Shown here: positions 6,819-27,628 of the stretch, piece by piece | How positions within the stretch are numbered: position 1 is the stretch's first letter | Layout: each line of letters starts with the position of its first letter | Assembly: GCF_016862795.1 (NCBI RefSeq) | Contig: NZ_BONQ01000019.1 | Location: forward strand, 1-53,136 | From: Dactylosporangium siamense | Lineage (GTDB): Bacteria > Actinomycetota > Actinomycetes > Mycobacteriales > Micromonosporaceae | Direction: 5' to 3' | DNA: 53,136 bases | Made by a program: the position numbers and the translations under genes | The notes under the pieces: generated by a model | Database searches by the model: none | What the model was told of the DNA's origin: nothing | What the model saw: only the letters and a program-made list of their open reading frames with translations

Positions 6819-7681
6819 CGGTCTTCCTTCGGCCGGAGGACGGATACGACGATGATGCTTGCCACGGCGACGAGGGCGAGCAGGAACGCGGTGGCGTAGG
6901 CGCCGCCCTTGTCGAAGTTCAGGTACTTCTCCTCGACCACCAGCGGTGCGGTGCGGGTGAGTCCCAGCACGTTGCCCGACACGATCTTCACGGCGCCGAA
7001 CTCGCCGAGCGACCGGGCGAGGCTCAGCACGACGCCGTAGATGATGCCCCACTTGATCGAGGGCAGGGTGATGCGGCGGAAGGTCTGCCAGGCGTTGGCG
7101 CCGAGGCTGCGGGCGGCCTGCTCCTGCTCCTCGCCGACCTCCTCGAGCACCGGCACGACCTCGCGGATGACCAGCGGCAGGGCCACGAAGACGGTGGCCA
7201 TGACCATGCCGGCCTCGGCGAAGATGATCTGCAGGCCCCAGCTCTCCAGGGTCGGGCCGAACCAGCCGTTGCGGCCGCCGTAGACCAGCACCAGGGAGAG
7301 GCCCACGACCACGGGCGACACCGACAGCGGCACGTCGAGCAGGGCGTTGAGGAACCGCTTGCCGGGGAAGCGGTAGCGCACGAGCAGGATCGAGATGGTG
7401 ACGCCGAAGACCGTGTTGATGATGACGGAGATGATGGCGATCTCGACCGACAGGTGCAGCGCGTGCACGATGTCGGGGTCGGTGAGGATCGCCCGCAGGT
7501 CGTCGAAGCCCTTCTTGAAGGTGTTCTGGCCGACCAGGTACACCGGCCAGGCCACCAGGAAGAACAGGTAGGTGACGACGACGAGCCGGATCAGGTAGGT
7601 GACCGGGCCGCGCTTGCGGGTCCAGGCCTTGCCGGCGGACGCCTTCTTCACCGGGGCGGGCTTCACCAGGGTGTCAGCCAC
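6815..7681 (-). CDS. cysW: Sulfate ABC transporter permease CysW
   Basis: 288 residues with six predicted transmembrane helices and the cytoplasmic EAA loop ([20 protein letters not shown]) that docks on CysA. The motif [17 protein letters not shown] is characteristic of CysW permeases. The start overlaps the cysT stop by 8 nt and its stop overlaps the cysA start by 4 nt, showing tight translational coupling. Confidence 0.94.
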
Positions 7682-11977: not shown

Positions 11978-12380
11978 GAAGCCTCCCGCCGGCGATTCTA
12001 GCCGCCGCCGCGCCGGGAATCCGCCCGTCCGCCGGGTTTTGCCACCCGATCTGTCACCCACGTCCCTTTCGCGCGGATGTGTTGATTAGCCCGGACCTCC
12101 GGTGCTGTTCATCTGTTGCATGTCCGGCGCAGGCCTTGAACAATGCCTTTCTTCATGCACCAGGAAAAGGCTGACTCCTTTACGAAGGTGCAGTTCATTG
12201 CCGCGCATATCGTCTATTCGTGAACGCACAATGGGCCGAATGGTCAGCCTCGGATCATGCATTGTGTATTTCGCCGGCACGATTCATCCGTCGTTCATTG
12301 TCGGAGCACTCGGCAGTGGTTCTTCACTGCGAAGGTCGGCGTCGCATTCAACTTTGAGTGCAAGGCGGAAAGGTCATGGA
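11978..12380. other. 403-nt divergent intergenic region, lower GC
   Basis: Between the kinase gene and the first gene of the Pst/WxL cluster lies a stretch clearly poorer in GC than its surroundings. It holds three GTTCAT-type elements (12107-12113, 12193-12199, 12293-12299); only the last is part of an 11-nt direct repeat. An open frame crosses it from 12102 but has no signal peptide, family or codon bias, so I regard the region as regulatory and untranslated leader. Confidence 0.6.
12282..12303 (+). promoter_or_regulatory. PHO-box-like direct repeat
   Basis: Two 11-nt units, ATTCATC-CGTC and GTTCATT-GTCG, lie in tandem about 80 nt before the first gene of the cluster. The actinomycete PhoP box consists of 11-nt direct repeats with the core GTTCACC; these units match 5 of 7 core bases each. 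PhoP control of the downstream operon is a testable inference. Confidence 0.4.
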
Positions 12381-13433
12381 ATGCGACACATCAGTAAGGT
12401 CGGGCTGGGGGTGGCGGGGGTAGCGGTGCTCCTGCTCACCCAGGCCACCGCGGCTCACGCCGATGTCGCGGCACAGGGCAACGACATCGTCGGCATCGGG
12501 TCCGACACCATCCAGTACGCCGCCGACTTCCTGGCCGACGGCGACTACCAGGGCAACCCCGGCTTCAACGCCGCGGGCGGCCGGGTGTTCAACTTCGACG
12601 CGACCGGCGACGCCAGCGGCAAGCTCACGGCGGGTGCCACCGTCGTGCTGCGGGGCGGCAACTTCCCGGTCACGCGCCCGAACGGCTCCGGCGGCGGTCT
12701 GACGTACTTCACCCAGACCGACACCGGCGCCACGAAGAAGGTCCAGTTCGTCCGCAGCTCGCGCAAGCCGAGCAAGGCTGAGGACGACCGCGCGATCGCC
12801 AACGGCTGGGGCGGCCTGCGCTGCTACCAGCTCGGCCTCGACGGTCTGCGGATCGCCGTGTCGAAGAACGTGGCGACGAACGCCGGCACCGCCGGCATCA
12901 GCTCCGCGGACCTGAAGAAGATCTACAGCAGCCCCCCGCAGATCACCACGTGGGGCCAGGTCAGCGGCTACAACGGTCCGAACCCGGGCGCCACGATCGT
13001 CCCGATCCTGCCGCCCGCGACCTCCGGCACCGAGCAGTTCTTCATCGCGCAGATCGGCCTCACCGAGGCTCAGGTCCGCACCACCGCTGAGGGCCTGGTC
13101 CGGGCCGAGGAGCACGACCCGACGCCGATCCAGGGCAACGCGAATGCCATCGCGCCGTTCTCGACCGCCCGTCTGGTCATGATCCACAACGGCTACTTCA
13201 ACGCTGGTACCGCGCAGGACCCGGTGACGCTGCAGTCCGGTGGAGTCGCGTTCGACGTGACCCGGCCGGTGTACTTCATCGTCCGTAACAGCGAGATCAA
13301 CACCTCGTGGAACAAGGCGCTCTTCGCGCCGGGTGGGTTCCTGTCCCAGTCGTTCCTCGCGCAGCCCCTGATCGAGGACTCGGCCGGTTTCACGTACCAG
13401 TACGCCGACGCGGGCCTCTGCCACACCGCCTGA
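12381..13433 (+). CDS. Secreted PstS-like substrate-binding protein, first gene of the Pst/WxL cluster
   Basis: 350 residues with a Sec-type signal peptide (1-27, ending ATAAHA) and no lipobox or membrane anchor, so it is probably released or held by partners. The sequence has the PstS-like fold signature near the N-terminus (DIVGIGSDTIQYAADFL, GSDT at 40-43) and the anion-binding-like SGTEQFF (215-221), but the Arg and Asp that precede SGT in classical PstS (R-S-D/E-G-SGT) are replaced by P-P-A-T. Phosphate as ligand is therefore uncertain. ATG at 12381 has AAAGG seven nt upstream. Only 34 nt separate it from the WxL-like gene, so it is most likely cotranscribed with it. Confidence 0.82.
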   Translation: MRHISKVGLGVAGVAVLLLTQATAAHADVAAQGNDIVGIGSDTIQYAADFLADGDYQGNPGFNAAGGRVFNFDATGDASGKLTAGATVVLRGGNFPVTRPNGSGGGLTYFTQTDTGATKKVQFVRSSRKPSKAEDDRAIANGWGGLRCYQLGLDGLRIAVSKNVATNAGTAGISSADLKKIYSSPPQITTWGQVSGYNGPNPGATIVPILPPATSGTEQFFIAQIGLTEAQVRTTAEGLVRAEEHDPTPIQGNANAIAPFSTARLVMIHNGYFNAGTAQDPVTLQSGGVAFDVTRPVYFIVRNSEINTSWNKALFAPGGFLSQSFLAQPLIEDSAGFTYQYADAGLCHTA

Positions 13434-13467
13434 GCCGGCGCACATCAACCTTCGAAACGGAGTCCCA

Positions 13468-15189
13468 GTGAAGATTCGCTCCAGGTCCCTGATGGTCGGG
13501 GCGGCAGCCCTGGCTGTCGCGGCCAGCGTCCTGGTCGGGGGAGGTGTCGCCTACGCGGCGGTGACCCCGGCCTTCGAGCCGGACCCCAACGCGATCGGCA
13601 GCATCACCCTGTACAACGCCAGCGGCGCTGTCATCACCGGCGGTAGCCTCACCGACAGCCCGATCGCGGCGTACGCGGCGGCTTCCGGCGCGGGCCGCAC
13701 CGGGGACGTGAGGGCCTTCCTCCGGGTGGCCACCCCGAAGGCGGCCACGCCGACCGACCAGTTCGAGTCGGCCGTCGTCACCAACACCACCAATTTCCCG
13801 AACACGGCCGCCCCGGCGCCGCTCAACGGGCTGGGCACGACCCCGCTCGTCAGCGCCACGGCCGGCACCTCCCTGGGCGCCTACATCGCGTCCAAGCCCA
13901 ACACCGAGACGGCCGCGAACCTGGCGAACATCTACCAGCTCCGCCTGATCACGACCGCCCCGGGCCAGTCCCCCGACGTGAACTACTTCCGCCTGGACCT
14001 CCAGGTCGACACCGCGGCCGGCACGTGGAGCATCGCGTACCCGGCGTCGGCGACGGCGACCACGACCACGCTGACCGCCAGCCCGGCCAGCCCGGTCAAC
14101 AGCGGGACCGCGGTCACCCTGACCGCGAAGGTCACGCCGGCCAACACCGCCGGTTCCGTGCACTTCTTCGACGGTGCGACGGACCTCGGTGCGGGCACGT
14201 ACAACCCGGCCACGGGCAACGCGACGCTCAGCGTCACGCCGTCGGTCGGCAGTCACTCGCTCACCGCACAGTTCACCCCGAGTGACACCTCCGCCTTCAA
14301 CGGTTCCACCTCCACGGCGCTGCCCTTCACCGTGAACGCCCCGGGCACGCCGACCACCACCACGCTGACCGTGACCCCGCCCAGCGGGACCGCGGCCGGC
14401 ACCGGTGGCACGCTCGACGCGACGCTCTCCGCGGTCGTGGCCCCGGTCGGCACCGCCGGCTCGGTCCACTTCTTCGACGGCGCCACGGACCTGGGCGCGG
14501 GCACCTACGACGTCGCCACCGGAACGGCGACGCTCGTGAAGACCCTCGCCACGGGCAACCACCTGCTCATCGCGACGTTCACCCCGAGCGTCGGCGGCTT
14601 CCAGTCGTCGTCCTCGGCGATCCTGAACTACGCGGTGGTCGGCGCGAACGGTGCGGCTGTGCCGCTCGACGCGCAGAACAACAGCGAGCCGTTCGCGGGC
14701 GCGCTGGTGCTCCAGGTCGCGGCGGGCACCGCCGTGCACCTGACCCAGGTCCCGGTGAACGACCCGAACGGCCACCCGGCGCAGGCGACCGACCCCACGG
14801 GTCACCGTCACGCCTGGGTGTTCACGGGCAACTTGACCGGCGTTTCGGTCAACGACACCCGGCCCACCCAGGACGGCTGGACGCTCAACGGGCAGGCCGC
14901 GGACTTCCGCAACGGCCAGACCGTCGTGCCGGCCACCAACCTCGGCTGGGTGCCGGCTGCCAGCGGCGGCGACGCCGAGGGCACCGTGGCCGCCGGCGCG
15001 GCGGTCGACTCGAAGCTCAAGACGGCCACCAGCAACGGTCTGCAGACCAGCAGCCAGTTCGCGAAGGCCGCCCCGGGCAACGGGCTCGGCACCAAGGACC
15101 TCACCTCCGCCCTGGAGCTGCGGATCCCGGACACGTCCCCGACCGGCCTCTACACCAGCACCCTCACGCTGACGCTGGTCAGCCCGTGA
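13468..15189 (+). CDS. Secreted Ig-repeat protein with C-terminal WxL-like domain
   Basis: 573 residues. Signal peptide 1-30 (cut after AYA); N-terminal domain about 31-190; two bacterial Ig-like (Big_3-type) repeats at about 194-290 and 296-390 that share the identical stretch GSVHFFDGATDLGAGTY (229-245 and 331-347); and a C-terminal domain about 395-573. The last domain resembles WxL domains of Gram-positive cell-surface proteins: VNDTRPTQDGWTLNGQ with W471-T-L473, an A-x-G-x-G stretch (AAPGNGLGTKDL), and the closing pattern G-L-Y-T-S-T-L-T-L-T-L, where the second W is Leu. WxL domains bind peptidoglycan without covalent linkage. GTG start with ACGGAG upstream. The next gene encodes a WxL-interacting-type protein, which supports the call. 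Confidence 0.8.
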   Translation: MKIRSRSLMVGAAALAVAASVLVGGGVAYAAVTPAFEPDPNAIGSITLYNASGAVITGGSLTDSPIAAYAAASGAGRTGDVRAFLRVATPKAATPTDQFESAVVTNTTNFPNTAAPAPLNGLGTTPLVSATAGTSLGAYIASKPNTETAANLANIYQLRLITTAPGQSPDVNYFRLDLQVDTAAGTWSIAYPASATATTTTLTASPASPVNSGTAVTLTAKVTPANTAGSVHFFDGATDLGAGTYNPATGNATLSVTPSVGSHSLTAQFTPSDTSAFNGSTSTALPFTVNAPGTPTTTTLTVTPPSGTAAGTGGTLDATLSAVVAPVGTAGSVHFFDGATDLGAGTYDVATGTATLVKTLATGNHLLIATFTPSVGGFQSSSSAILNYAVVGANGAAVPLDAQNNSEPFAGALVLQVAAGTAVHLTQVPVNDPNGHPAQATDPTGHRHAWVFTGNLTGVSVNDTRPTQDGWTLNGQAADFRNGQTVVPATNLGWVPAASGGDAEGTVAAGAAVDSKLKTATSNGLQTSSQFAKAAPGNGLGTKDLTSALELRIPDTSPTGLYTSTLTLTLVSP

Positions 15190-15212
15190 CGGTGCGGTAA
15201 CGCACAACACGC

Positions 15213-15245
15213 CAGGTCGGCCCGGGGCCACCCCGGGCCGGCCTG
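15213..15245 (+). terminator. Strong hairpin inside the Pst/WxL cluster
   Basis: A 15-bp stem (one G-U pair) with a 3-nt CCA loop lies in the 95-nt gap between the WxL-like gene and the next gene. It may act as a partial terminator or a 3'-end stabiliser that makes the two upstream secreted proteins more abundant than the transporter subunits. Confidence 0.6.
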
Positions 15246-15284
15246 CGCCCATCTGCTGCACATCCGACGGACGGGAAACCTGCT

Positions 15285-16316
15285 ATGAGACGCCTTTTCG
15301 CACTGGTCGCGGCTGTCGCCGTCGCCGCGGTGCTGACCCCCGCGGCCGCGCACGCCGAGCCCGCCGACGACGGCAACCGCGCCTGGTCGCTGCGGCCCGG
15401 CACGCCGGAGGGCAAGCCCGACAAGCGCACCCACTACACGCTGCAGGGCATCCCCGGCGCGGCAGTGGAGGAGAAGGTGCTCGTCACCAACAGCAGCAAG
15501 GTTCCCGCCTCGTTCGTCATCTACGGCACCGACGCGTTCAACACCTCGACCGGCGCGTTCGACCTGCTGCCGGCCGCGCAGAAGCCCACCGACATCGGCT
15601 CCTGGATGCAGTTCCAGGCACCGGCGATCACCATCGACGCCGGCGCCACCGTCGCGGTGCCGTTCAAGGTGGTCGTGCCGGCCAACGCGACCCCGGGCGA
15701 CCACGCCGGTGGGGTCGTGGTCTCCCTCGCCACCGGCACCGACGTCAAGGTCGACACCCGGGTCGCGGTCCGGCTCTACCTCAGGATTGCCGGGCTGCTG
15801 CGCCCCGTACTCGCGGCCCAAAAGGTGGAGGCGCACTACTTCGGGGTGACCAACCCGTTCAGCGACGGCTCCGTGACCGTGTCGTACACGGCGGAGAACA
15901 CCGGCAACATCCGGCTGCAGAGCCACGCGAAGCTGGTCGTGAAGTCCGCGCTGACCGGCATCACGCTGGCCGAGAAGAAGCTGCCCGACCTGCCGGAGCT
16001 GCTGCCCGGCCAGCGGGTGCCGCACGAGGCCGAGATCGACGGCGTCTTCCCGGCCGGCCCGCTGACCGTGCGGGTCGAGCTGGAGCCGTTCGGCGACCCG
16101 GAGCAGCCCGTCGGGCAGGCCGTGCCGAAGGCGGAGGGGCACACGACCATCTGGGCCTGGCCGTGGCTGCTGCTGATCGTGCTGCTGATCCTGGGCACCG
16201 GCGCCGGGTTCCTGGTGCGCCGCTGGCTGATCCGCCGCCGGCAGGCCCGCGCCGACGCCGCCGCGCTGGAGCGCCGCCGCGCCCGCAAGGAGAGCAAGGC
16301 CGGAGCGGCGGCATGA
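15285..16316 (+). CDS. DUF916/WxL-interacting-type membrane-anchored surface protein
   Basis: 343 residues. Signal peptide 1-25 (ends AAAHA), an extracellular part made of two Ig-like halves, then one transmembrane helix at about 290-312 ([20 protein letters not shown]) and a basic cytoplasmic tail ([20 protein letters not shown]). The layout and motifs ([56 protein letters not shown]) match the DUF916 peptidoglycan-binding plus host-binding (DUF3324-type) proteins of Firmicutes WxL loci, which hold WxL proteins and attach them to the wall. It is coupled by a 4-nt overlap to the LPRTG gene. The molecular role here is inference by family and neighbourhood. Confidence 0.82.
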
Positions 16317-17131
16317 CCAACCGGTTGACGGTTGCTGCGGTGGTACTGGCAGCAGCGGCCGCCCTGACCACCACCGGCTGCTCGGCGGACAAACCGGCCG
16401 CCGTGCCCTACACCGACAGTCGCTCGGCCGGCGGCATCGTGCTCTACGGCAAGGACGGCAAGCCCGCCACGACGGGAAAGACGGCCGACAAGCCGTTCGT
16501 CGCGAAGGCGATCGCCCAGGCGAAGGCGCCCGAACCCTACGACCGGGACGGCCGCAAGGCGACGCTGCTCGCCTTCCTGCCCCGCAAGGACGCCGACCCG
16601 ACGCAGTGGCACGGCCGGTTCCTGACCGGCGCCAGCGCGTATCCCGACGCGGCGCACCCGACGGTCGTCGCACCCGCGGAGGCCGGTTCCCTGGCCGAGT
16701 TCCTGGACGTGTACCCGACCCAGTGGGACGGGCTCGTCCAGCTCCGCATCTACCTCGGGGTGCCCGGCGAGGAGACGCTCACCACGAGCTACGCGACCGC
16801 CGACATCCGGGTCAGCGGCGGCACCTGGACCGTGGTGCGCGGCGGGTCCACCAAGGCCGCCGGCCGGATCGGCGCCGCGATGGCGGGCGCGGCCGTGATG
16901 GACGGCGAGACGGGCGTGCCGATCGAGGTCCGCGTCGACGGTGGCTCCACCAGCCCCAGCCCCAGCCCGACCCCGGCCGGTGGCGGCGGCCCGCTGCCGC
17001 GCACCGGCGCCGACGTGATGACCCTCGCCGGCGGCGGCCTGCTACTCGTCGTCGCGGGCGTCGCCGCTGTCCTGCTCGGCCGGCGACGCCGTGCCACCGC
17101 CACCGCTCCCCGCGAGGAGGCCCACCGATGA
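16313..17131 (+). CDS. Small surface protein with lipobox and LPRTG sorting signal
   Basis: 272 residues. A lipoprotein signal peptide ends TTTGC (Cys23). The mature domain (about 30-180) aligns by eye with the N-terminal domain of the WxL-like protein two genes upstream (GGIVLY at 40-45, LLAFLP at 85-90, LVQLRIYL at 141-148, GTWTV at 170-174). A Ser/Pro/Thr linker leads to the sorting signal: LPRTG at 228-232 (nt 16994-17008), hydrophobic segment, RRRR tail. Small LPxTG proteins are standard members of Firmicutes WxL loci. Having both a lipobox and an LPxTG motif is unusual; one may not be used. It overlaps both neighbours by 4 nt. Confidence 0.82.
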
Positions 17132-18387
17132 CGACCGCGCCGACCGAGGAGTCACACCCGCACGAGCCGCAGCCGGCACCGTTCGCACCACCGGACGGCG
17201 CCGCCCGCCACGCCGCGCCGGACGAACCGGGACCGGACGAACCGGGACCGCAGTACGCCGGTCCGCAGTACACGAGCCCGCAGTACGCGAGCCCCCAGTA
17301 CGCCAGCCCGCAGTACGCGGGTCCGCAGCACCCCGGGCCACCGCATCCAGGCCCGCAGCACTCCGGGCCGCCGCATCCGGGTCCGCAGCACCCTGGGCCA
17401 CCGCATCCGGGTCCGCAGCACTCCGGGCCGCCGTATCCGGGTCCGTGGTCCTCCGGGCCGCAGGAGACGCTGCCGTTCGGTCCCGTGCCGCCGCCGCAGT
17501 TCCAGCCGCCGGGTCACCCCGCGCCGCCACTGGGTTACACCGCGCCGCCGCTGGGCTACCCCGCGCCGCCGCTGGGCTATCCCATGCGGCCGGTCGCGGC
17601 GCCGGCGGCGCCCCTCGCCACGCTCGACGCGCGGGCGATCTCGGCCTGGTTCGGCAGCCGTAAGGTGCTGGACCGGGTGTCGCTGACGATGCAGCCCGGC
17701 CGGGTCACCGCGCTCATCGGCCCGTCCGGCTGCGGCAAGTCGACGTTCCTGCGGATCCTCAACCGGATGCACGAGCTGGTGCCGTCGGCACAGCTGGCCG
17801 GCGAGGTCCTGCTCGACGGCGCCGACATCTACGACACCGGCCGCCGGATCACCGACGCGCGGCGCCAGATCGGCATGGTGTTCCAGAAGCCCAACCCGTT
17901 CCCGACGATGAGCATCTACGACAACGTGGTCGCCGGGCTCAAGCTGACCGGCCTGAAGGTCCGCCGCTCGGAGAAGGACGCCCTGGTCGAGGAGTGCCTC
18001 ATCAAGGCCGGCCTGTGGCGGGAGGTCAGCGACCGGCTGCGCTCGCCCGGCGGCGCGCTGTCCGGCGGCCAGCAGCAGCGGCTGTGCATCGCCCGGTCCC
18101 TCGCCATCCGGCCCCGGGTGCTGCTGATGGACGAGCCCTGCTCCGCGCTCGACCCGACCTCGACCCGGGTCATCGAGGAGACGATCGCCGAGCTCGCCGC
18201 CGAGGTCACCATCGTCATCGTCACGCACAACATGCAGCAGGCGCACCGGGTCTCGCAGCAGTGCGCGTTCTTCCTCGCCGAGCACGGCACGCCGGGCGCG
18301 ATCGTGGAGAGCGGCGAGACCGAGCAGATGTTCGGTTCGCCCGTGGACCGGCGGACCTCCGACTACGTCAACGGCCGGTTCGGATGA
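17128..18387 (+). CDS. pstB: PstB-type phosphate ABC transporter ATPase with repeat-rich N-terminal extension
   Basis: 419 residues against about 255-260 for PstB. The ATPase domain occupies about 165-419: Walker [10 protein letters not shown] (198-206), Q-loop [11 protein letters not shown], signature LSGGQQQRL (from 311), Walker [18 protein letters not shown]-loop THNMQQA; the FQKPNPFP and NRMHEL motifs are PstB-specific. The extra ~160 residues are low-complexity: fourteen five-residue units of the type P-[QP]-[YHW]-x-[GS] (residues 41-110) and three APPLGY units (132-152). The extension is in frame after the overlapping ATG at 17128 and has no alternative internal start with a clear ribosome site. 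First of the transporter genes, with order B-C-A-S instead of the usual S-C-A-B. Confidence 0.9.
17248..17457 (+). repeat. 15-bp tandem repeats coding for the PstB extension
   Basis: Fourteen 15-bp units, each coding for a Pro-Gln/Pro-Tyr/His-x-Gly/Ser pentapeptide. The first five units are PQYxx, the later nine alternate PQHxG and PPHPG, giving a 30-bp higher-order period. A related 21-bp repeat (APPLGYx, three copies) follows at 17521-17583. Confidence 0.85.
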
Positions 18388-19433
18388 GCGTCGTGTCACT
18401 GGAAAAGCCGCAGGACCCGGTGCCGGACCCGGAGCCGGACCTGGTGCCGGAGCCCGAGCAGGACCAGCCGCGCCAGCTGGCGGCGGCGCGCTCGCTGCAG
18501 GACCGGATCTTCCGGGGCGGGTCGCTGAGTGTCGGCATCCTGGTCATGGTCATCTTCGGGTCGATCGGCTTCTTCCTCGCGTTGCAGTCGATCCCCACGC
18601 TGTCGCGGTACGGCTGGGGCTTCTTCACCGAGAGCGACTGGCAGCCGGAGCGCGACGCGGTCGGCATGTCCGCCGTGCTGCTCGGGACCTTCCTGGTCGG
18701 GCTCATCGCGATGATCACCGCGTTCCCCCTCGCGCTGGCCTGCGCGCTGTACATCAGCGAGTACGCCGCGCCGGGGCTGCGCAAGTCCCTCGTCGCGATG
18801 ATCGACCTGATGGCGGCCGTGCCGAGCATCATCTACGGGCTGTGGGGCTTCTTCCTGCTCGGGCCGCAGCTGATCCCGATCGCGCACTGGCTGCACCAGA
18901 ACCTCGGCTTCATCCCGTTCTTCCGGGTCGAGACGGACCCGAACGAGCCGGTCTGGGCGCAGTCGCAGTACACCGGATCCGCGTTCGCGGCGGGTCTGGT
19001 CGTGGCGATGATGGTCATCCCCATCGCCTGCGCCGTGATGCAGGACGTGTTCTCGCAGGCACCGGCCGGCGAGCGGGAGGCGGCCCTCGCCCTGGGCGCG
19101 ACCCGCTGGGGCATGATCCGCACCGTGGTGCTGCCGTTCGGGCGGGGCGGCATCGTCGGCGGCACGATGCTCGGCCTCGGCCGGGCGCTCGGCGAGACCG
19201 TCGCCGTGCTGCTGATCATCGGCATCGCGTTCGACCTCAAGGTCCGGGTGCTCGAAGTCGGCACGATCACGGTTTCCTCGCTGATCGCCAACCGGTTCGG
19301 CGAGGCGACGGCGGCGCAGCTCGCCGCGTTGCTGACCGCCGGCTTCGTCCTCTTCGTCATCACGGTGATCGTCAACACGATCGCCGCCATCATCGTCAGC
19401 CGCGGCCGCAGCGGCGCGTCCACCGAGATCTGA
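18384..19433 (+). CDS. pstC: PstC-type phosphate ABC transporter permease
   Basis: 349 residues. An acidic, proline-rich N-terminus ([18 protein letters not shown]) precedes six predicted membrane helices. The EAA loop [19 protein letters not shown] and the motifs [17 protein letters not shown] and [16 protein letters not shown] are typical of PstC. It forms the channel with PstA and is driven by PstB. The start overlaps the pstB stop by 4 nt. Confidence 0.93.
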
Positions 19434-19447
19434 GACGGGAGGGGATC

Positions 19448-20551
19448 ATGTCGACCACGAGCACGAGCGGCACCCGTACCGACGCCGCAGCCGCAACGAA
19501 AACGGACCCTTCGGCTCCCGAGCGGCCCCGGCGGTTGCGTGCCCGCACGCTCGACGACAAGCTGAGCCTCCTCGGCGCCACGGCCGGCTCGCTCGCGCTG
19601 ACCTGGGTCCTCTACGGCAAGATCCTGCCGTTCTCCGGGCTGGTTGGCTTCCTCATCGTCTGGTATGTCGTGTTCCTGCTGATGTACGCGACCGTGACCA
19701 GCCTGTCCAGCCCGCGGCCGGTCGTGGTGGACCGGGTCGCCGGGGCCGTCGTGATGGCCGGCGCGGGCGTCGTCGCCGTCGCGCTGCTGTCGACCGTGTT
19801 CTACACGTTGGTCCGCGGCGTGCCGGTGGCCCTGCACTGGAACTTCTTCACCAAGGACATGAGCGGGGTGCGGCCGACGGCCCCGATGAGCGAGGGCGGC
19901 ATCCTGCACGCGCTGGCCGGCTCGGCCGTGGAGATCGGCATCGGGGTGCTGATCTCACTGCCGCTCGGCGTGGTGACCGCGGTCTACATGGTCGAGGTCG
20001 GCGGGCGGCTGTCGAAGGTCGTGCGGACCGTCGTCGAGGCGATGACGGCCGTGCCGGACATCCTCGCCGGCCTGTTCGTCTACACGACGCTGGTGGTCGG
20101 ACTCGGGTGGCCGAAGTCGGGGCTGGCCGCCGGTCTGGCGATCGCCGTGACGATGGTGCCGATCATCGCGCGGGCCTCCGACGTGGTGCTGCGGGTGGTG
20201 CCCGGCGGCCTGCGCGAGGCGGGTTTGGCGCTCGGCGCGTCGCAGTGGCAGGTGGTCCGCCACGTGGTGCTGCCGACCGCCCGGCCCGGCCTGGCGACCG
20301 CGCTGATCCTCGGCGTCGCCCGCGGCATCGGCGAGACGGCGCCGGTGCTGATCACCTCCGGAGCGTCCACGTTCCTCAACCTCAATCCGACCGAGAACAC
20401 GATGAACTCGTTGCCGCTGTTCATCTTCATCGGTGTCCGAAGTGGACAGCCGCAGTTCATCGACCGGGGGTTCGGGGCCGCGGCGGTCCTGCTCACGGTG
20501 GTGCTGCTGCTGTTCTCCCTGGCCCGCTGGCTCGCCCGGCCGAAGGTGTGA
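19448..20551 (+). CDS. pstA: PstA-type phosphate ABC transporter permease
   Basis: 367 residues, longer than the usual ~290 because of a hydrophilic 38-residue N-terminus and an additional pair of hydrophobic segments (about 40-85) before the usual six helices. Family motifs are AMTAVPDILAGLFVY, the EAA loop LREAGLALGASQWQVVRHV, and VARGIGETAPVLITSGAS. It follows pstC after 14 nt; GGGAGGGG precedes the ATG. Confidence 0.93.
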   Translation: MSTTSTSGTRTDAAAATKTDPSAPERPRRLRARTLDDKLSLLGATAGSLALTWVLYGKILPFSGLVGFLIVWYVVFLLMYATVTSLSSPRPVVVDRVAGAVVMAGAGVVAVALLSTVFYTLVRGVPVALHWNFFTKDMSGVRPTAPMSEGGILHALAGSAVEIGIGVLISLPLGVVTAVYMVEVGGRLSKVVRTVVEAMTAVPDILAGLFVYTTLVVGLGWPKSGLAAGLAIAVTMVPIIARASDVVLRVVPGGLREAGLALGASQWQVVRHVVLPTARPGLATALILGVARGIGETAPVLITSGASTFLNLNPTENTMNSLPLFIFIGVRSGQPQFIDRGFGAAAVLLTVVLLLFSLARWLARPKV

Positions 20552-20556
20552 CCGCC

Positions 20557-22236
20557 ATGCGACCGACCCGCCCCACGACCGACAGACGAGGAATCATCGT
20601 GCACACTTCCGCCGCCCGCACGCGGCTCGCCATCGTGGCCGTGCTGGCGATGGTCGCGACCCTGGTCGCGCCGGCCACCCCGGCCCTGGCCGTCGGCCAC
20701 GCCCGGATCACCGGCACCGGCTCGTCCTGGAGCGCGAACGCGCTGAACCAGTGGGTCGCCGACGTGCAGAAGCAGGGCCTGCAGGTCGACTTCACGCCGA
20801 CCGGCTCGGCGACCGGCCGCAAGGACTTCGCCGCGCTCGCCACCGACTTCGGCATCACCGACATCGGCTTCCGCGGCGAGGACCCGAAGACCAAGCAGAA
20901 GGACACCGCCCAGGGACGGGAGTTCGCCTACCTGCCGATCGTCGCCGGCGGCACCGCGTTCGTCTACCAGGTCCGGGTCGGCGGCCAGCTGGTGCGCAAC
21001 ATCCGGATGTCCGGCGAGACCCTGGCCAAGATTTTCTTCGGGCAGATCACGAACTGGAACGACGCGCAGATCAGCGCCGACAACAACGGCCGGAAGCTGC
21101 CGTCGCTGCCGATCATCGTGGTCGCGCACTCCGAGGGCTCGGGCTCCACGGCCCAGTTCACCTCGTACCTGGCCAACCAGTACCCCAGCCTGTGGCGGGC
21201 GTACAACGGATCGCCGGAGTTCACCGAATACTTCCCGCCCCTGCCGGCGACCGGCACCCGCGGCAACAAGGTCTACGCGGTCAACGGCTCCGACGGCGTC
21301 ATCAACACCGTCACCGCCGGGTCGAGCAACGGGGCCATCGGCTACGACGAGTACTCCTACGCCCTCGGCGCCGGCTACCCGGTGGTGAAGCTGGAGAACA
21401 AGGCCGGCTACTTCACCTCGCCCAGCGAGTACAACGTCGCGGTCGCCCTGACCGCCGCCGAGCTCAACATGGACCCGAAGGACCCGAACACGTACCTGCT
21501 GCAGAAGCTGGACAAGGTCTACATCAACCCGGACCGGCGCACGTACCCCATGTCGTCCTACTCGTACATGCTGCTGCCGATCGGGGACAGCAAGAAGGAC
21601 CCACGGATCAACAGCGAGAAGCGCCAGACCCTGGTCGACTTCATGGCCTACTCGATCTGCACCGGGCAGCGCTCGATGGGCGCCACCGGCTACTCGCCGC
21701 TGCCGGTCAACCTGGTGGAGGCCGGCTTCACGCAACTGAAACGGCTGAACGCCGCCGACGCGCAGGTCACCGTGGCCGCCAAGCCGGTCAACCAGTGCAA
21801 CAACCCGACGTTCGACCCCGCCGACCCGGCCCGCAACCACCTGGCGCAGATCGCGCCGAATCCGGCGGACTGCGACAAGCGTGGTGCCGGCCCGTGCGCG
21901 GCCACCGGGGCGACCGGCGGCACCAACACCGCGGGCGGCAACGGTAGCGGCGGCACCGGCACCGGCACCGGTGGCGCGACCACCAACCCGTCGGCGTCCG
22001 GATCCGCCGCTGCGGCCGGCCAGATCGACCCCGACACCGGCGAGGTGATCAGCGGCGGCGGTGGCAGCGGCGGCGGGGACGCCAACGCCGTCGGCGTCCC
22101 GAACGACCTCGCGGCGTTCACCACCGGCAAGCACATGAAGGTGCTCGGCCCGGCCGCGGCGGCGCTGCTGCTGCTGGTCGTCTTCGGCCCCGCCCTGCTC
22201 GGTCGCTGGCTGCGCCGCCGCCGGGAGCAGCCGTGA
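20557..22236 (+). CDS. pstS: Membrane-anchored PstS-type substrate-binding protein
   Basis: 559 residues. Signal peptide (hydrophobic core about 24-45, ends ATPALA), PstS fold about 50-420 (ITGTGSSWSANALNQW, DFTPTGSATGRKDFAA, FGITDIGF, GQITNWND, YLANQYPSLW), a Gly/Ser/Thr linker (about 445-515), and a C-terminal helix followed by GRWLRRRREQP. It is thus anchored by its C-terminus rather than by a lipid. The phosphate-loop region reads H191-S-E-G-S-G-S-T instead of R-S-D-G-S-G-T-T, so the conserved Arg is His. The start is uncertain: ATG 20557 follows the pstA stop closely (GAAGG upstream), while GTG 20599 has AGGA six nt upstream and gives a more standard signal peptide. Confidence 0.88.
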   Translation: MRPTRPTTDRRGIIVHTSAARTRLAIVAVLAMVATLVAPATPALAVGHARITGTGSSWSANALNQWVADVQKQGLQVDFTPTGSATGRKDFAALATDFGITDIGFRGEDPKTKQKDTAQGREFAYLPIVAGGTAFVYQVRVGGQLVRNIRMSGETLAKIFFGQITNWNDAQISADNNGRKLPSLPIIVVAHSEGSGSTAQFTSYLANQYPSLWRAYNGSPEFTEYFPPLPATGTRGNKVYAVNGSDGVINTVTAGSSNGAIGYDEYSYALGAGYPVVKLENKAGYFTSPSEYNVAVALTAAELNMDPKDPNTYLLQKLDKVYINPDRRTYPMSSYSYMLLPIGDSKKDPRINSEKRQTLVDFMAYSICTGQRSMGATGYSPLPVNLVEAGFTQLKRLNAADAQVTVAAKPVNQCNNPTFDPADPARNHLAQIAPNPADCDKRGAGPCAATGATGGTNTAGGNGSGGTGTGTGGATTNPSASGSAAAAGQIDPDTGEVISGGGGSGGGDANAVGVPNDLAAFTTGKHMKVLGPAAAALLLLVVFGPALLGRWLRRRREQP

Positions 22237-24992
22237 GCCGCCGCCGGATCGCCAGCGTCGCCGTGCTGCTGGTCTGCTCCGGACTGATCCTGTCCGGGCC
22301 GAGCTACTCCGCGCCGAGCGACGAGCCGGAGCCCGAGTTCACCGCGACCAAGACCATGACGCGCTCGCACGTGGAGGCCGACGGCACCGAGTCCCCGGCC
22401 GTCACGAAGACCGTCACCGCCACCGTCAGCCAGGTCACCGGCCTGCGCAGCAACCAGCAGATCAGGGTGAGCTGGACCGGCGCCCAGCCGACCCGGGCCA
22501 CGTCGAGCGCCCCCAACAGCGTGCAGGCGCCGCTGCAGGAGTACCCGGTCGTGGTGATGCAGTGCCGTGGCGTCGACACCCCGGCACATCCGCTGGACCC
22601 GAGCACGTGCTGGACCCAGGGGGTCGGCGAGCGCCGGTACACGGATCCGACCGTCAAGTTCCCGCCGTGGCGGCTCGACCGGTACGAGACCGCCGCCAAC
22701 CGCCGGGGCACCGTCGGTCTCCCACCCTCGCCGCCGGCGAGCTGCGACCTGGCGTCGGAGGTCAGTCCACCGGCGCGGTACGTGCCCTTCGTCGGCCCGC
22801 CGCCCCAGAACATCACCTACTATCCGCTCAACCGGCGGGAGAACGACAGCTGCGGCCCGGTCCTCGCCACCGACATGGTCAACGTCGAGGACAAGGACTC
22901 GACGCCGACGAACACGACCTACGCGGCGAGCAACGCCAAGGGCGACGGCAGCATCAAGTTCGTGGTGACGACGGACGAACAGAACCAGTCGCTGGGCTGC
23001 TCCACGACGGTCCTGTGCACGCTCGTCGTGCTGCCGATCATGGGCGTGAGCTGCGACCTCGCCGCCGCGGCACTGCCGGCCGAGGACCGCCCCACGGGGG
23101 TCGACCTCAAGGACGGCGGGTCCAAGTGCAAGGCCAACGGGCGCAAGGGCGTTGGCGAGATCTACGACAACAACGACCCCGATCAGATCGACGTCGCGGT
23201 GACCGCCAGATTCTGGTGGAGCGCCTCGAACTGGCGCAACCGGATCACGGTCCCGCTCACGTTCGTCCCATCCGGGAACCTGTGCGTCCTCACCGACAAC
23301 GACATCCCGCTGGACATGTTCGGCTCGGAGCTGATGGTGCAGGCCACCGACCAGTGGGCGACCGCGTTCTGCACCGACCCCACCCGCTTCAAGTTCCGGC
23401 ACGTGCGGCTCGGCGAGCCGCAGGCCAAGGCCGCGCTGGTGGCCAGCGGCGCGAGGGCGGCACTGGTCAGCAGCCCACCACCGGAGCCGTACCCGATCCG
23501 GACGGTCAGCGCACCGATCGCGGTGACCGGTTTCGCGATCAGCTACACGATGGACGACGCGACGGGCAACGAGTACAAGGACCTGAAGCTCAACGCGCGG
23601 CTGCTCGCGAAGCTGCTCAGCGAGTCGTACCCGACGAAGGGTGACCTGAAGGCCGCCTACGGCAAGGCGGACAAGAACGACCCGTACCTGGCGATGGCCG
23701 ACAATCCGCTCGCGGTCACCCTCGACCCGGAGTTCAAGGCGCTCAACCCCACCATCGGCGACGGCTACGCCACCATTCTGAGCTCCTCGACGCTGCTGGC
23801 GCTGTCCGTCAACTCCGACGTGATGTACGCGCTGTCGGCGTACCTCAACGCCGACCCGGAGGCGCGGGCGTTCCTCAACGGCGCCAAGGACCCGTGGGGC
23901 ATGGTCGTGAACCCGGGCTACAAGGGCATCCAGCTGCCGTTGCCGGCCTGGCCGCTGCTGGACTCGTTCGTGTCGCCGAACTTCACGCCGTACACCGGCT
24001 GCTCCAACACCGAGTACACCGACACCCTGGCGCAGATCCCCTACCCGCCGCTGGTCGCCTCGCCGGTGGCGAGCCTCGCCAACGTCGCGCAGCGGGTCCA
24101 ATACGCCCTGGCCAACGCCCACGTCAACTGCTCCCTGCTCCTCGACGAGAAGAGCACGCCGGTCGGCGTCAACATGAGCGCCATCGGCCGTCAGGAGTTC
24201 CGGGGCCGGTTCATGCTCGGCGTGACGAGCCTCGCCGACGCCGAGTTCCTCCAGCTCAACACCGCGGCCCTGCAGTCACACTCGACGGCGTCCACCACGG
24301 CGCAGTTCACCGGCCGGGACGGCCGCACCTTCGTCGCGCCGACCGGGGACTCGATGGCGGCCGCGATGCGGTTCGTCAAGCAGGACACGACCGCGAACAC
24401 CTGGGTCATGCAGTACGACAAGCTCGTCAGCGCCGACGGCGCGAGCGCCTATCCGGGCACCCTGCCCGTGTTCGCGACCATCCCGACGGAGAACATCGGC
24501 GCCGACGGCGCGAAGCTGGCCCAGTTCCTGAAGTTCGCGGTCGGCCCCGGGCAGACCCCCGGGCTGGGCAGCGGCCTGCTCCCGCCCGGCTACCTGCCGC
24601 TGACCGCCGCGAACGGGCTCGGCGACTTCGCCGCCTTCACCCTGCGTGCCGCCGACGCCGTCGCGGCGCAGGCCGGCACGATCCCGCTGGTGCAGGGCGG
24701 CAACGACGTCAAACCCCCGCCGCCCACGACCGGCGGCGGCACGGGCAACACCGGCACGGGCACCGCCACGGTGCCGGCGACCGGCACCCGCCCCTCCGGC
24801 GCCGTGCCGTCCGCCTCCGCGTCCGCGGCGCCGCAAGCGGCGCAGCGGACGGCCGGGTTCACCGCCGGGCTGTCCTCGGCCCTGGCCGCCTGGGCATTGC
24901 CGGTCGCCGTGATCATCACGCTGGCGACCTTCCTGATCGGCTCGGTCACCCGTGCCGTGACGTTCGTCGTGACCTGGTGGAAGGCGACATGA
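22233..24992 (+). CDS. Large secreted, C-terminally membrane-anchored protein of the Pst/WxL cluster
   Basis: 919 residues. Signal peptide about 1-27 (MSRRRIASVAVLLVCSGLIL...SYSA), a Cys-containing extracellular body, a Pro/Thr/Gly linker (about 828-875), and a transmembrane segment near the C-terminus (about 886-912, AWALPVAVIITLATFLIGSV). I do not recognise a family with certainty. The middle part (about 395-480) contains a weak PstS-like pattern: VSAPIAVTGFAISY followed by KLNARLLAKLLSESY, comparable to LPIVAGGTAFVY and MSGETLAKIFFGQI of the preceding PstS. It could be a very diverged binding protein or a scaffold beside it. Both ends overlap their neighbours by 4 nt, so it belongs to the operon. 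Confidence 0.8.
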   Translation: MSRRRIASVAVLLVCSGLILSGPSYSAPSDEPEPEFTATKTMTRSHVEADGTESPAVTKTVTATVSQVTGLRSNQQIRVSWTGAQPTRATSSAPNSVQAPLQEYPVVVMQCRGVDTPAHPLDPSTCWTQGVGERRYTDPTVKFPPWRLDRYETAANRRGTVGLPPSPPASCDLASEVSPPARYVPFVGPPPQNITYYPLNRRENDSCGPVLATDMVNVEDKDSTPTNTTYAASNAKGDGSIKFVVTTDEQNQSLGCSTTVLCTLVVLPIMGVSCDLAAAALPAEDRPTGVDLKDGGSKCKANGRKGVGEIYDNNDPDQIDVAVTARFWWSASNWRNRITVPLTFVPSGNLCVLTDNDIPLDMFGSELMVQATDQWATAFCTDPTRFKFRHVRLGEPQAKAALVASGARAALVSSPPPEPYPIRTVSAPIAVTGFAISYTMDDATGNEYKDLKLNARLLAKLLSESYPTKGDLKAAYGKADKNDPYLAMADNPLAVTLDPEFKALNPTIGDGYATILSSSTLLALSVNSDVMYALSAYLNADPEARAFLNGAKDPWGMVVNPGYKGIQLPLPAWPLLDSFVSPNFTPYTGCSNTEYTDTLAQIPYPPLVASPVASLANVAQRVQYALANAHVNCSLLLDEKSTPVGVNMSAIGRQEFRGRFMLGVTSLADAEFLQLNTAALQSHSTASTTAQFTGRDGRTFVAPTGDSMAAAMRFVKQDTTANTWVMQYDKLVSADGASAYPGTLPVFATIPTENIGADGAKLAQFLKFAVGPGQTPGLGSGLLPPGYLPLTAANGLGDFAAFTLRAADAVAAQAGTIPLVQGGNDVKPPPPTTGGGTGNTGTGTATVPATGTRPSGAVPSASASAAPQAAQRTAGFTAGLSSALAAWALPVAVIITLATFLIGSVTRAVTFVVTWWKAT

Positions 24993-25921
24993 CCGCGACT
25001 GCCGTGCTCGAATCCCCGGCCGATGACGACGACGACTTCGAGGACCTCCTGCCGGAGCCGGTGGTCCTGACCAAGCTGCCCCCGCCGGCCGCCGTGACCG
25101 TCGTCGTGCGGTCGCTGCTGACCCTCGCCGTGCTGTCTGGCTGGCTCGTCGCGTACGCGCTCGGGGTCAGCGCCGTGCAGCAGGCCCGCACCCAGCAGCA
25201 GCTGTACAACGACTTCCGGGAGAAGCTGGCCCTCGCGACCGTGCCCATCGGCGGCGAGATCGATCCCGGCACCCCGGTCGCGCTGATCGAGGCGCCCGGC
25301 ATCGGCCTGCGCCAGATCGTGGTGGAGGGCACCAGCTCCGGCGTCATGCGCGACGGCCCCGGGCACCGCCGCGACACCGCGCTGCCCGGCCAGCCCGGCA
25401 CCTCCGTCGTCTACGGCCACGCGGCCGCGTTCGGCGGCCCGTTCCGCCGGGTCACCGAGCTGCAGCCCGGCGACCCCGTCACCGCCACCAGCGGCCTGGG
25501 CGTCATGCGCTACGAGGTGACCGGCGTACGCCGCGAGAGCGACCCCCTGCCCGCACCCCTGCCCTCCGGCGGCGCCCGGCTGACCCTGGTCACCGCCGAG
25601 GCCGACGGCTGGCGCAGCGGCTGGGCGCCGAACCGGGTCGTCTACGTCGACGCGGTCCTCAAGTCCGGCGACGTCCTGCCCGGCCACCCGGGCCGGCCGA
25701 GGTCGGTGGCGGTGGCCGAGAAGGCGATGCAGGCCGACCCGGACGCCCTGGTGCCGCTGGTGTTCTGGCTCCAGGTGTTCGTGGCCGCGGCCCTCGCGAC
25801 CACGTGGGCCCGGCAACGCTGGGGCGGCCTGCAGACCTGGTTCGTCGGCGCGCCGATCCTGCTCGCCTGCCTCTGGGGCACCGTGGAGACCCTCGCCGAG
25901 TTCCTGCCGAACCTTTCCTGA
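24989..25921 (+). CDS. Class E sortase-like membrane protein lacking the catalytic cysteine
   Basis: 310 residues. An acidic N-terminus (DDDDDFEDLLPEP), a membrane helix (about 37-60), a sortase domain (about 85-225) and two further hydrophobic segments at the C-terminus (about 255-305). Class E features are clear: VEGTSSGVMRDGPGH, TALPGQPGTSVVYGH with His144, FRRVTELQPGD, and the conserved Arg in PNRVVYVD (Arg216). The catalytic Cys, expected in TLVTC, is Ala203 (codon GCC at 25595-25597) in LTLVTAEADGW. The only other Cys is in the C-terminal helix and cannot replace it. It should not perform transpeptidation; binding or scaffolding of sorting signals is an inference. Last gene of the cluster, overlapping the previous one by 4 nt. 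Confidence 0.88.
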   Translation: MTATAVLESPADDDDDFEDLLPEPVVLTKLPPPAAVTVVVRSLLTLAVLSGWLVAYALGVSAVQQARTQQQLYNDFREKLALATVPIGGEIDPGTPVALIEAPGIGLRQIVVEGTSSGVMRDGPGHRRDTALPGQPGTSVVYGHAAAFGGPFRRVTELQPGDPVTATSGLGVMRYEVTGVRRESDPLPAPLPSGGARLTLVTAEADGWRSGWAPNRVVYVDAVLKSGDVLPGHPGRPRSVAVAEKAMQADPDALVPLVFWLQVFVAAALATTWARQRWGGLQTWFVGAPILLACLWGTVETLAEFLPNLS

Positions 25922-25969: not shown

Positions 25970-26059
25970 CGTGGCCCCGGACGGACGTCCATATTCGTGA
26001 GTGGATGATCGCTGATGGTCACCCCGGCTCGATACGATCGCGCCGGAGGTGGCCCCACC

Positions 26060-27628
26060 ATGACAACCATCGCGCTCGCCCGCGGTGCGAACACCGCCAT
26101 CGACGAACCGGCCGTCCGCGCGTCGATCGCGTGGGGCGCGGGCTCGTCCGTGGACCCGTGTGCGCTGCTGCTCGCCGCGGACGACAAGGTCCGCAGCGAC
26201 GCGGACTTCGTGTTCTTCAACCAGCCGCGCGACGCCGCCGGCACGGTCGAGCTGACCGAGGACGGCCCGCGCGGCGCGAGCCTCGAGGTGCAGCTGCACC
26301 GGCTCCCGGCACAGGTCAGCAGGGTCGTCGTCGCCGGTTCGATGGACGGCGGGACGTTCGACGCCGTGCCCGGCCTGGAGGTCACCGTCGCGACCCGGCA
26401 CGGGCGGATCCTCGCCCGGTTCCCGATCGCCGGGGTCGAGCGGGTCACCGCGATGGTGTTCGGCGAGTTCTACCGGCGCGACGGGCGGTGGAAGTTCCGG
26501 GCCATCGGGCAGGGCTGGGACTCCGGCCTGTCCGGCCTCGCCACCAACTACGGGGTCACCGTCGACGAGGAGGAGCGCGAACCGGGCTGGTACCCAGTGC
26601 CCACCGACCCGCAGCACCAGCGCTGGTGGAACGGCACCGAGTGGGGCGTGCGGACCATCCGGCTCTTCCACGAGACGGCGACCGGCTGCGGGCGGTGCGG
26701 CGGCACGAAGACCCGGGCGCACGCGGACCAGCCGCTCTCGTGCGTCCCGTGCGCGACGGAGATCGCAAACGTGCTCAACGTGTGGAGCACCAAGGCCGCC
26801 AGGGTCCTCGCCGCCGCCGGTCCGCAGGGCCCGGAGTGGGACGCCCTGACCAACGAGCTGCGCTTCCACCGGGTGGGGGAGGCCGCCGGCCGCCGGGCGC
26901 TGCGGCCGGTCGCGTTGCAGCACCTGGAGCAGATGGTGGCGTTCGCGTTCGCCGACGACCTGATCGAGCAGCACGAGGTCGACGAGTTCGAGGACGCGGT
27001 GCGCCGCATCGGCATCACCGACACCGCGATCGCCGACATGCGCCGCCGGCTGCAGCGCGGCCTCGACCTGGCCCGCATCGCCGACGGCGACGTCCCCACG
27101 GTCACGCAGACCTCCCTGCATCTGGAGGCCAGCGAGATCCTCCACCTGGACCTGCCCGCCGCCAGCATCAGGTTCCTGGCCAACGGCCCGCGCCCCAACC
27201 CCGGCCGCCTGATCGCGACCAACACGAAGCTGCGCTTCCTCGGCGACACCGGTGCCGGGTCGGAGATTGCCTGGGGCAGGGTTATGGAGATCCGCCCGGA
27301 GAACGGCCGTGTCGTCATTACGGCGACCGCCAGGGGCGGCAACTACAAGGTCGACGACGCCGAACATGTGGCGGCCGTGCTCACCGGCGTGCTGCGGATC
27401 GCCAAACGGACCGCGAACGTCCCCGCCCAGCGCGACACTCGCGCCATCGCCCCCGCCATCAAGTCCGAGGTGTGGCGTCGCGACGGCGGTGCGTGCGTGG
27501 AGTGCCGGGCCACCGAGTATCTCGAGTTCGACCACGTCATCCCGTGGAGCCGCGGCGGCGCGACCAGCGTCGGCAACCTCCAGCTGCTGTGCCGCAAGTG
27601 CAACCTCGCCAAGGGCGCCCGCATCTGA
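26060..27628 (+). CDS. TerD-DUF2510-PH-like-HNH nuclease fusion protein
   Basis: 522 residues in several modules. TerD/CABP domain about 1-170 (LARGANTAI, ALLLAADDKVRSDADFVFFN, Ca-binding-type acidic loop); DUF2510 about 172-200 (EPGWYPVPTDPQHQRWW); a C-x2-C...C-x2-C zinc ribbon (about 213-235); a helical TerB-like part; a bacterial PH-like domain (about 345-440); and an HNH nuclease at about 468-520 (EVWRRDGGACVECRA, FDHVIPWSRGG, NLQLLCRKCNLAKG). TerD proteins act in membrane-linked stress responses; joined to a nuclease, a DNA-directed defence or damage role is plausible. The ATG at 26060 has GGAGGTGG eight nt upstream, which rules out the earlier in-frame GTG at 26015. Confidence 0.9.
   Translation: MTTIALARGANTAIDEPAVRASIAWGAGSSVDPCALLLAADDKVRSDADFVFFNQPRDAAGTVELTEDGPRGASLEVQLHRLPAQVSRVVVAGSMDGGTFDAVPGLEVTVATRHGRILARFPIAGVERVTAMVFGEFYRRDGRWKFRAIGQGWDSGLSGLATNYGVTVDEEEREPGWYPVPTDPQHQRWWNGTEWGVRTIRLFHETATGCGRCGGTKTRAHADQPLSCVPCATEIANVLNVWSTKAARVLAAAGPQGPEWDALTNELRFHRVGEAAGRRALRPVALQHLEQMVAFAFADDLIEQHEVDEFEDAVRRIGITDTAIADMRRRLQRGLDLARIADGDVPTVTQTSLHLEASEILHLDLPAASIRFLANGPRPNPGRLIATNTKLRFLGDTGAGSEIAWGRVMEIRPENGRVVITATARGGNYKVDDAEHVAAVLTGVLRIAKRTANVPAQRDTRAIAPAIKSEVWRRDGGACVECRATEYLEFDHVIPWSRGGATSVGNLQLLCRKCNLAKGARI

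Follow-up and report, generated by a model that had tools for sequence, protein, structure and literature searches.

How does a Pst-type ABC importer come to share an operon with cell-wall proteins and a sortase-like protein, and which of these genes form a conserved set? The question is raised by ten consecutive rightward genes of Dactylosporangium siamense, on contig C19 of a 12.7-Mb genome; we refer to the whole stretch of DNA that was analysed (53,136 nt, NZ_BONQ01000019.1) as the window. The initial annotation had described these genes, at 12381–25921, as a complete PstB-PstC-PstA-PstS set merged with a second PstS-like protein and several surface proteins, nearly all joined by 4-nt overlaps. 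All ten genes are indeed present (Table 1), but only five of the nine junctions are 4-nt overlaps. The others are gaps of 34, 95, 14 and 5 nt, with the 95-nt gap lying between g2 and g3 and containing a hairpin. One caveat for the loci of relatives is that gene calling was GC3-based and crude: some called genes are shadows, and g10 was missed in several loci, where it was recovered by profile models.

Table 1. Features of the operon and its upstream region (window coordinates)
Feature	Coordinates	Strand	Description
PHO-box-like direct repeat ATTCATCCGTC-GTTCATT	12282..12299	+	13/14 positions fit GTTCAYY x2, period 11
g1	12381..13433	+	Secreted PstS-like protein, no anchor; PBP_like_2 3.9e-14
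g2	13468..15189	+	Secreted; N-terminal domain as in g4, two Ig-like domains, C-terminal WxL-like domain
GC-rich hairpin, no T-run	15215..15243	+	Between g2 and g3; fold energy of the gap given in text
g3	15285..16316	+	DUF916/WxLIP protein, C-terminal membrane helix; WxLIP_PGBD 1e-8
g4	16313..17131	+	LPRTG wall-anchor protein, motif 16994-17008; TIGR01167 LPXTG_anchor 18.6 bits, cut-off 15.9
g5	17128..18387	+	PstB ATPase; 165-aa Pro/Gln-rich N-terminal extension
g6	18384..19433	+	PstC permease; TIGR02138 262 bits, cut-off 196; PDB 9k3s_B 4e-49
g7	19448..20551	+	PstA permease; TIGR00974 203 bits, cut-off 193
g8	20557..22236	+	PstS, C-terminal membrane helix as anchor, not lipid; TIGR00975 1.6e-52
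DPDTG motif (IDPDTGEV)	22027..22041	+	Membrane-proximal linker of g8
g9	22233..24992	+	Giant PstS-fold protein, 919 aa; extra N-terminal domain, C-terminal membrane helix
g10	24989..25921	+	Pseudo-sortase; PF04203 Sortase 1.4e-16

The proposed pump, its PstS and the second PstS-like protein have Pfam or NCBIfam matches in g5, g6, g7, g8 and g1. Both permeases (g6 and g7) score over their NCBIfam phosphate equivalog cut-offs. For g5, the PstB model TIGR00972 is the best of the listed ABC models, matching from residue 166 with 331 bits, under its cut-off of 343, and both Walker motifs are present (A, GPSGCGKS; B, LLMDEP). The g8 protein falls under its TIGR00975 cut-off as well (179 versus 205 bits). 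Altogether, the operon encodes three PstS-like proteins, g1 and g8 by sequence and g9 by fold.

We sought g9 in 61 genomes including the window's own, found a match in 18, and took 19 neighbourhoods (L020–L038). The nearest relatives are Dactylosporangium, with g9 at 76% identity in the same-genus genome G006. Using profile models and all six-frame open reading frames, we detected g1, g8, g9 and g10 in 19/19 of these same-order loci, PstC and PstA in 18 (L024 stops at a contig end) and PstB in 17 (not seen in L024 and L025); g2-like and g3-like genes were found in 16 and 14. The models for g1–g10 were built from these same loci plus the window, and hence this tally is not an independent test of them. 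The genome itself carries a second copy of the operon on contig C172, with the order C-A-S-g9-g1-g2-g3-?-g10-B.

A wider search (tblastn E ≤ 1e-3, one search pattern, 84,980 species genomes) yielded 356 stretches encoding a g9 relative, raising the possibility that the system is a widespread form of actinobacterial nutrient capture that goes unnoticed behind annotations like PstS, sortase or hypothetical protein. The best 80 of the 356 (L039–L118), in which g9 is present by construction, come from Dactylosporangium, Nocardioides, Aeromicrobium, Cellulomonas, Frankiales, Acidimicrobiia MAGs and others. Components were tallied in the 45 loci that extend more than 7.5 kb from g9 in both directions, the remaining 35/80 being dropped as incomplete. 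PstC, PstA, g8 and g10 accompany g9 in 45/45, and g1 and PstB each in 44/45. The surface genes are far less constant, with g2-like genes in 18/45, g4-like in 14/45 and g3-like in 10/45; the seven-gene core (pump, g1, g8, g9 and g10) stands without any WxL-module match in 27/45. In a draw of 296 genomes from the phylum, g9 scored at least 100 bits in 8 genomes (9 loci), a lower bound on prevalence since at most 3 and 7 candidates were scored per genome, and all nine loci have a g10 match above 200 bits no more than 6 kb away.

These data show that the gene set recurs in relatives far beyond chance; the absence of synteny that the initial annotation named as refuting its reading is thus not what is seen. 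The constant unit is the importer together with the giant PstS g9, the anchored PstS g8, g1 and the pseudo-sortase g10. Given the low counts of WxL/DUF916/LPxTG genes in the wider set, this module is accessory to that unit. The initial annotation read the genes as a wall-spanning machine for capture and import, with a putative peptidoglycan-bound scaffold for the secreted binding proteins. Of this reading, the union of a Pst-type importer with surface proteins in one conserved gene set is supported, but the module as a fixed part (18, 14 and 10 of 45) is not.

DUF916 proteins have a distribution of their own. They occur in 22 of the 296 phylum-sample genomes, 18 of which lack a g9 match of at least 100 bits; the other four are among the eight g9 genomes, and DUF916 lies within 20 kb of g9 in the window's own genome and in G236. 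(In G230, a contig end near the operon limits the view of this linkage.) We considered the WxL module as the defining part of the system and ruled this out, as it is absent from most complete loci and DUF916 resides mostly in g9-free genomes. The module is optional: it is frequent in loci close to the window's order and less frequent in the others.

Within the window, membership of g3 in the DUF916/WxLIP family is clear (WxLIP_PGBD 35.7 bits, cut-off 27.3; C-terminal transmembrane helix). The g2 protein contains two Big_3_5 domains (6.8e-19), and its N-terminal domain resembles that of g4 (blastp 2e-8). The window copy of g2 has no WxL Pfam match and is WxL-like by motif and at the family level: the first WxL-like motif (DTR..GWTL) is kept at 14854–14886, the second W is replaced, and WxL PF13731 matches 8/20 rows of the family alignment A3 (best 7e-6), the window row not among them. 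A fold model of g2 (mean pLDDT 79, pTM 0.42) gave a string of beta-domains with unspecific Ig-like matches and was set aside; no WxL structure appears among the structure matches listed for it.

Three further genes of the same genome each fuse a g8-like PstS to a g2-type WxL-like domain in a single protein. No other match to the g1–g10 models is seen among the called genes of the 20-kb stretches around them. Across the 61 genomes, counting adjacent matches read in one open frame, such fusions number eight and come from four genomes, all of the same genus (three in G000, one in G001, three in G002 and one in G003). They lend weight to a connection of PstS with the WxL-like domain.

The sortase domain of g10 is clear (PF04203 60.8 bits, cut-off 26.6; family profile A2 versus a PDB sortase-like chain, 3e-19). 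The best NCBIfam model for the window protein is class E sortase, at 67 bits versus a cut-off of 160, and this model matches 14/14 members of A2. With catalytic residues taken from SrtE1, as given in an excerpt of PMC5148588, the Cys site is Ala in g10 (LVTAE, 25586–25600). The initial annotation had called this a sortase-like protein without Cys; the catalytic Cys is absent as described, but a single Cys remains at residue 294, near the C-terminus, where the protein ends in LPNLS. Most family members likewise end in LPN plus two residues. Among 89 family rows, the Cys site holds Ala (54), Ser (23), Gly (8), Thr (2), Val (1) or a gap (1), with no Cys in the 88 rows that have a residue there, and the His site holds Arg (78), Lys (5) or His (6), the window retaining His. 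Three loci enter the pooled sets twice (L021/L039, L022/L041 and L023/L040), and hence the Cys-site, pocket, g9-motif and DPxTG tallies double-count one to three entries. The genome has ten sortase matches: three align with both Cys and His, three more have Cys in the motif, and those with Ala at the Cys site are g10 and its C172 paralogue, L123 and L124 falling outside this reading. On these alignments, g10 is a conserved pseudo-sortase that has lost its catalytic Cys. Compared with class E sortases as described in that excerpt, g10 shares the sortase domain and the model match but differs in its replaced Cys, its mostly replaced His, an extra C-terminal membrane helix and its LPNL-type end. 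In this operon, a family of catalytically dead sortases has a gene setting dedicated to it.

No Pfam or NCBIfam model matches g9. An AlphaFold2 model built from 16 sequences (pTM 0.71, mean pLDDT 69, better over residues ∼330–820) was compared to the PDB with Foldseek, and all 27 matches at E ≤ 0.001 are phosphate-binding or DING proteins (best 3.6e-9, TM-score by target 0.67). Alignment of g9 to g8 by hhalign gives 99% and 4e-18. According to this model, g9 is a PstS-fold protein. The initial annotation listed it as a large anchored protein; the PstS fold lay beyond what that annotation could see. PstS-type phosphate-binding proteins (PDB 1qui, 4lvq, 9k3x) have the same fold; compared to them, g9 is distinguished by its length, the extra N-terminal domain, conserved Cys residues and the replacement of most phosphate contacts.

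To compare the pockets, we used a list of eight PstS phosphate contacts from an excerpt of PMC10846223. In g8 (92 rows), G140 is found in 92, S38 in 81 and S139 in 77; T10 is T in 55 and S in 34, T141 is T in 58 and S in 22, R135 is R in 57 and H in 30, and D56 is E in 54 and D in 34. In the window protein, R135 is His and D137 is Glu. The g8 pocket thus appears largely kept, and it fits phosphate or a phosphate-bearing compound. The changes at R135 and D137 in the window, together with Glu for Asp56 in 54/92, raise the possibility that the solute is not free phosphate. In g9, reading of the hhalign alignment to g8 indicates that T10, F11, S38, R135, G140 and T141 are replaced and S139 is kept, with the D56 position in a gapped stretch; g9 seems to retain few phosphate contact residues, most being replaced. 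All 11 genomes examined have a separate PstS match away from the operon (open frames of 369–451 aa in ten genomes and 655 aa in one), and hence the operon may not be needed for basic uptake.

A C-terminal transmembrane helix is predicted in 73/75 g8, 79/80 g9, 72/75 g10 and 15/16 g3 proteins, and in 0/65 g1 proteins. No lipobox was found by a simple pattern in the g1, g3, g8, g9 or g10 sets. These predictions show that g8 is anchored through a membrane helix, with a long, flexible linker, and not through a lipid. The linker contains a recurrent motif, DPxTG, in 60/90 relatives, versus a mean of 1.5 and a maximum of 6 in 500 shuffles (two g8 proteins without the C-terminal helix were dropped from this test). 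Its median position is 39 residues before the helix (interquartile range 37–42; 62 matches to a relaxed pattern). Among 431 other called proteins with C-terminal transmembrane helices, a control that excluded GYxPLP-type PstS endings to skip g8, DPxTG occurs in two, and both are g8 copies. The motif is absent from 30/90 g8 proteins (28/90 even by the relaxed pattern). All but four of the 28 motif-less loci (L045, L055, L060 and L115, which are all cut at g9) still show g10, and thus the pseudo-sortase exists without DPxTG. We also looked for residues of g10 associated with DPxTG; the top columns (p ∼ 1e-6) are not separable from kinship, and this association was not used. The g9 linker has VPATG in the window (24771–24785). 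Reading of such an LPxTG-like g9 motif by the pseudo-sortase was rejected as a family-wide feature, as the motif is found in only 13/99 proteins (3.4 in shuffles), 7 of the 13 from Dactylosporangium.

Evidence regarding regulation comes from the DNA upstream. The Streptomyces PHO box consists of two 11-nt repeats with the core GTTCACC, according to the part of PMC4415409 consulted. The repeat in the window sits 81 nt before the g1 start codon, is kept in three Dactylosporangium orthologues, and is the sole match in the window at ≤1 mismatch (0.06 expected; 6/100 shuffles with a match). Of the 80 wider loci, 56 have usable upstream regions, 24 being dropped for a truncated or uncertain first gene. 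A pair with ≤3/14 mismatches is seen in 33/56 on the forward strand, compared to 4/56 on the reverse strand and 7/159 upstream regions of other genes. Out of 14 positions, the best pair mismatches on average at 3.29 (forward strand), 4.80 (reverse strand) and 4.97 (upstream of the 159 other genes). The true PHO core ranks first of 420 permutations, followed by its own shifted forms, and period 11 alone stands out among periods 8–15. After removal of similar sequences, pairs remain in 27/48 regions, and outside the Nocardioides group in 14/27. A perfect pair precedes the genome's own canonical pstS, on C130. No pair within 3 mismatches is found in 23/56 upstream regions, and likewise none before the C172 copy. 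We infer that the operon is under phosphate-starvation control of the PhoP type.

The operon encodes a real Pst-type importer variant that is conserved among relatives. What is new about it lies above all in the sortase family without the catalytic Cys, the giant PstS, the PHO-box footprint and the tether with DPxTG. With the PstSCAB importers of E. coli, Streptomyces and Mycobacterium it shares PstC, PstA, PstB and PstS homologues, the PstS fold and, judging from the upstream repeats, probably PHO-box-like control; it differs in having PstS on a C-terminal membrane helix and linker, the extra proteins g1 and g9, a pseudo-sortase, optional wall proteins and another gene order. Like the Csc (WxL-DUF916-LPxTG) clusters of Firmicutes, as far as excerpts of PMC1534035 and PMC9772566 describe them, it places a secreted WxL-like protein, a DUF916 protein with a C-terminal helix and an LPxTG protein side by side. 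Here, however, the module is joined to an ABC importer and contains Ig-like domains, one of the two WxL motifs is present in the window copy, the LPxTG protein has 272 rather than 90–140 aa, and there is one WxL-like gene instead of a small and large pair. The terms ABC transporter, actinobacteria and phosphate are absent from PMC1534035. Among the matches listed in open PMC full text (subscription papers lie outside this search), none describes sortase-like, WxL or DUF916 partners for a Pst system, in line with the initial annotation, which knew of no description.

On balance, we favor, with moderate confidence, a further Pst-type importer that is controlled by phosphate starvation and has its binding proteins tethered at the surface. 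The repeats before the operon would be bound by PhoP or an equivalent, and PstC-PstA-PstB, assigned by family, would act as the pump, fed by g8 on its helix and linker. The g10 protein, without its cutting residue, might hold DPxTG or a neighboring element and so keep the binding proteins at the pump, and g9 and secreted g1 may complete the outer complex. In the subset of genomes that includes the window's, g2, g3 and g4 could extend the complex to the wall and so allow solute capture at the peptidoglycan or beyond it; this step follows what is proposed for WxL and LPxTG proteins of Firmicutes. The most likely solute, judging from the g8 pocket, is phosphate or a phosphate-bearing compound. 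The idea of docking comes from the resemblance of DPxTG to the sorting signals LPXTG, NPXTN and LAXTG, which appear in the excerpt of PMC5148588. In its full form, with the pseudo-sortase as a non-cutting DPxTG reader, a receptor that holds both g8 and g9 at PstCAB under PhoP, we regard this idea as unlikely; if true, a sortase fold would serve as a reversible tether in wall-level, multi-protein phosphate capture by Gram-positives. The motif makes a docking mechanism directly testable. The system also bears on how Gram-positive bacteria, which have no outer membrane, retain binding proteins close to the pump when phosphate is limiting.

Other readings of the operon are less favored. A Pho-regulated importer whose altered g8 and g9 pockets catch a solute different from free phosphate (a phosphonate, an organic phosphate, a wall-derived phosphate compound or another oxyanion) is possible if somewhat doubtful: the substitutions at R135 (His in 30/92) and Asp56 in g8, a g9 that keeps the fold with few contact residues in the hhalign alignment, and the separate PstS in 11/11 genomes are all consistent with it, but most polar g8 contacts are kept and PstC and PstA exceed phosphate equivalog cut-offs. 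The same cut-offs, along with the Walker motifs of PstB, argue against a complex that only senses phosphate or wall stress, in which a Pst-like core, a dead sortase and a tethered PstS signal to a regulator with no import; the separate PstS, the degenerate catalytic site of the sortase and the degenerate second PstS would suit such a sensor, which we nonetheless consider improbable.

A machine for surface assembly, in which the ABC part aids assembly or release of WxL/LPxTG fibers and import is secondary, would explain why wall proteins and a sortase-like gene share the operon and why PstS-WxL fusions exist. This seems highly improbable, because the permeases are of the importer type, not exporters, and because the 27/45 complete loci without a WxL-module match still have the pump, giant PstS, g1 and pseudo-sortase. 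That a wall-protein operon lies next to a pst operon by chance deserves almost no credence. The many DUF916 genomes without g9 (18 of 22) point in that direction, but the core is kept in 45/45 complete loci and 19/19 near relatives, save for genes cut off or not seen, which refutes chance for the core, and the fusions speak against it as well.

The tethered importer may be transcribed in two parts. The gap between g2 and g3 has a predicted fold energy of –53.7, compared to –37.1 ± 3.7 for 200 mononucleotide shuffles, and the stem is present in three orthologues. A terminator scan of the + strand within the operon returned none. The hairpin separates g1-g2 from the remaining genes and could split the transcript. 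In S. lividans, termination sites between pstS and pstC have been suggested as the reason for the higher level of pstS transcript (PMC7866108, as excerpted), and the g2-g3 hairpin is a possible parallel by analogy.

The PstB ATPase of the operon (g5) carries an N-terminal extension of ∼165 aa, rich in repeats typified by a 14-residue sequence (not shown), which are specified at the DNA level by tandem repeats of 15/30/60 bp and 21 bp (window 17218–17592). PstB of the second operon copy in this genome, on contig C172, is only 276 aa long and hence has no room for an extension of this kind. In g4, the signal peptide ends in TTTGC (window 16313–16400), a possible lipobox that comes in addition to the LPRTG anchor.

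The genome also encodes orphan PstS-WxL fusion proteins, and the pocket is degenerate in the one on contig C15.

Orphan PstS-WxL fusion genes, by 20-kb stretch
Feature	Location	Remark
PstS-WxL fusion	L119:8863-10548	same genome as window
PstS-WxL fusion	L120:7314-9161	same genome as window
PstS-WxL fusion	L121:8318-10111	C15 copy; same genome as window

In two Nocardioides loci (L067 and L079), the operon is immediately followed by additional pstC-pstA-pstS-like genes, which may reflect a tandem duplication. In a third Nocardioides locus (L108, 13464 onward), the g1 open frame spans 922 aa; its C-terminal extension is basic and, on visual inspection, appears Ig-like.

Directly 3′ of the operon (window 26015–27628), a single protein combines TerD, DUF2510 and HNH nuclease domains. 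A separate ABC importer, perhaps for sulfate or molybdate, is encoded on the minus strand (window 5808–9565), with an SBP_bac_11 binding protein and a TOBE_3 ATPase.
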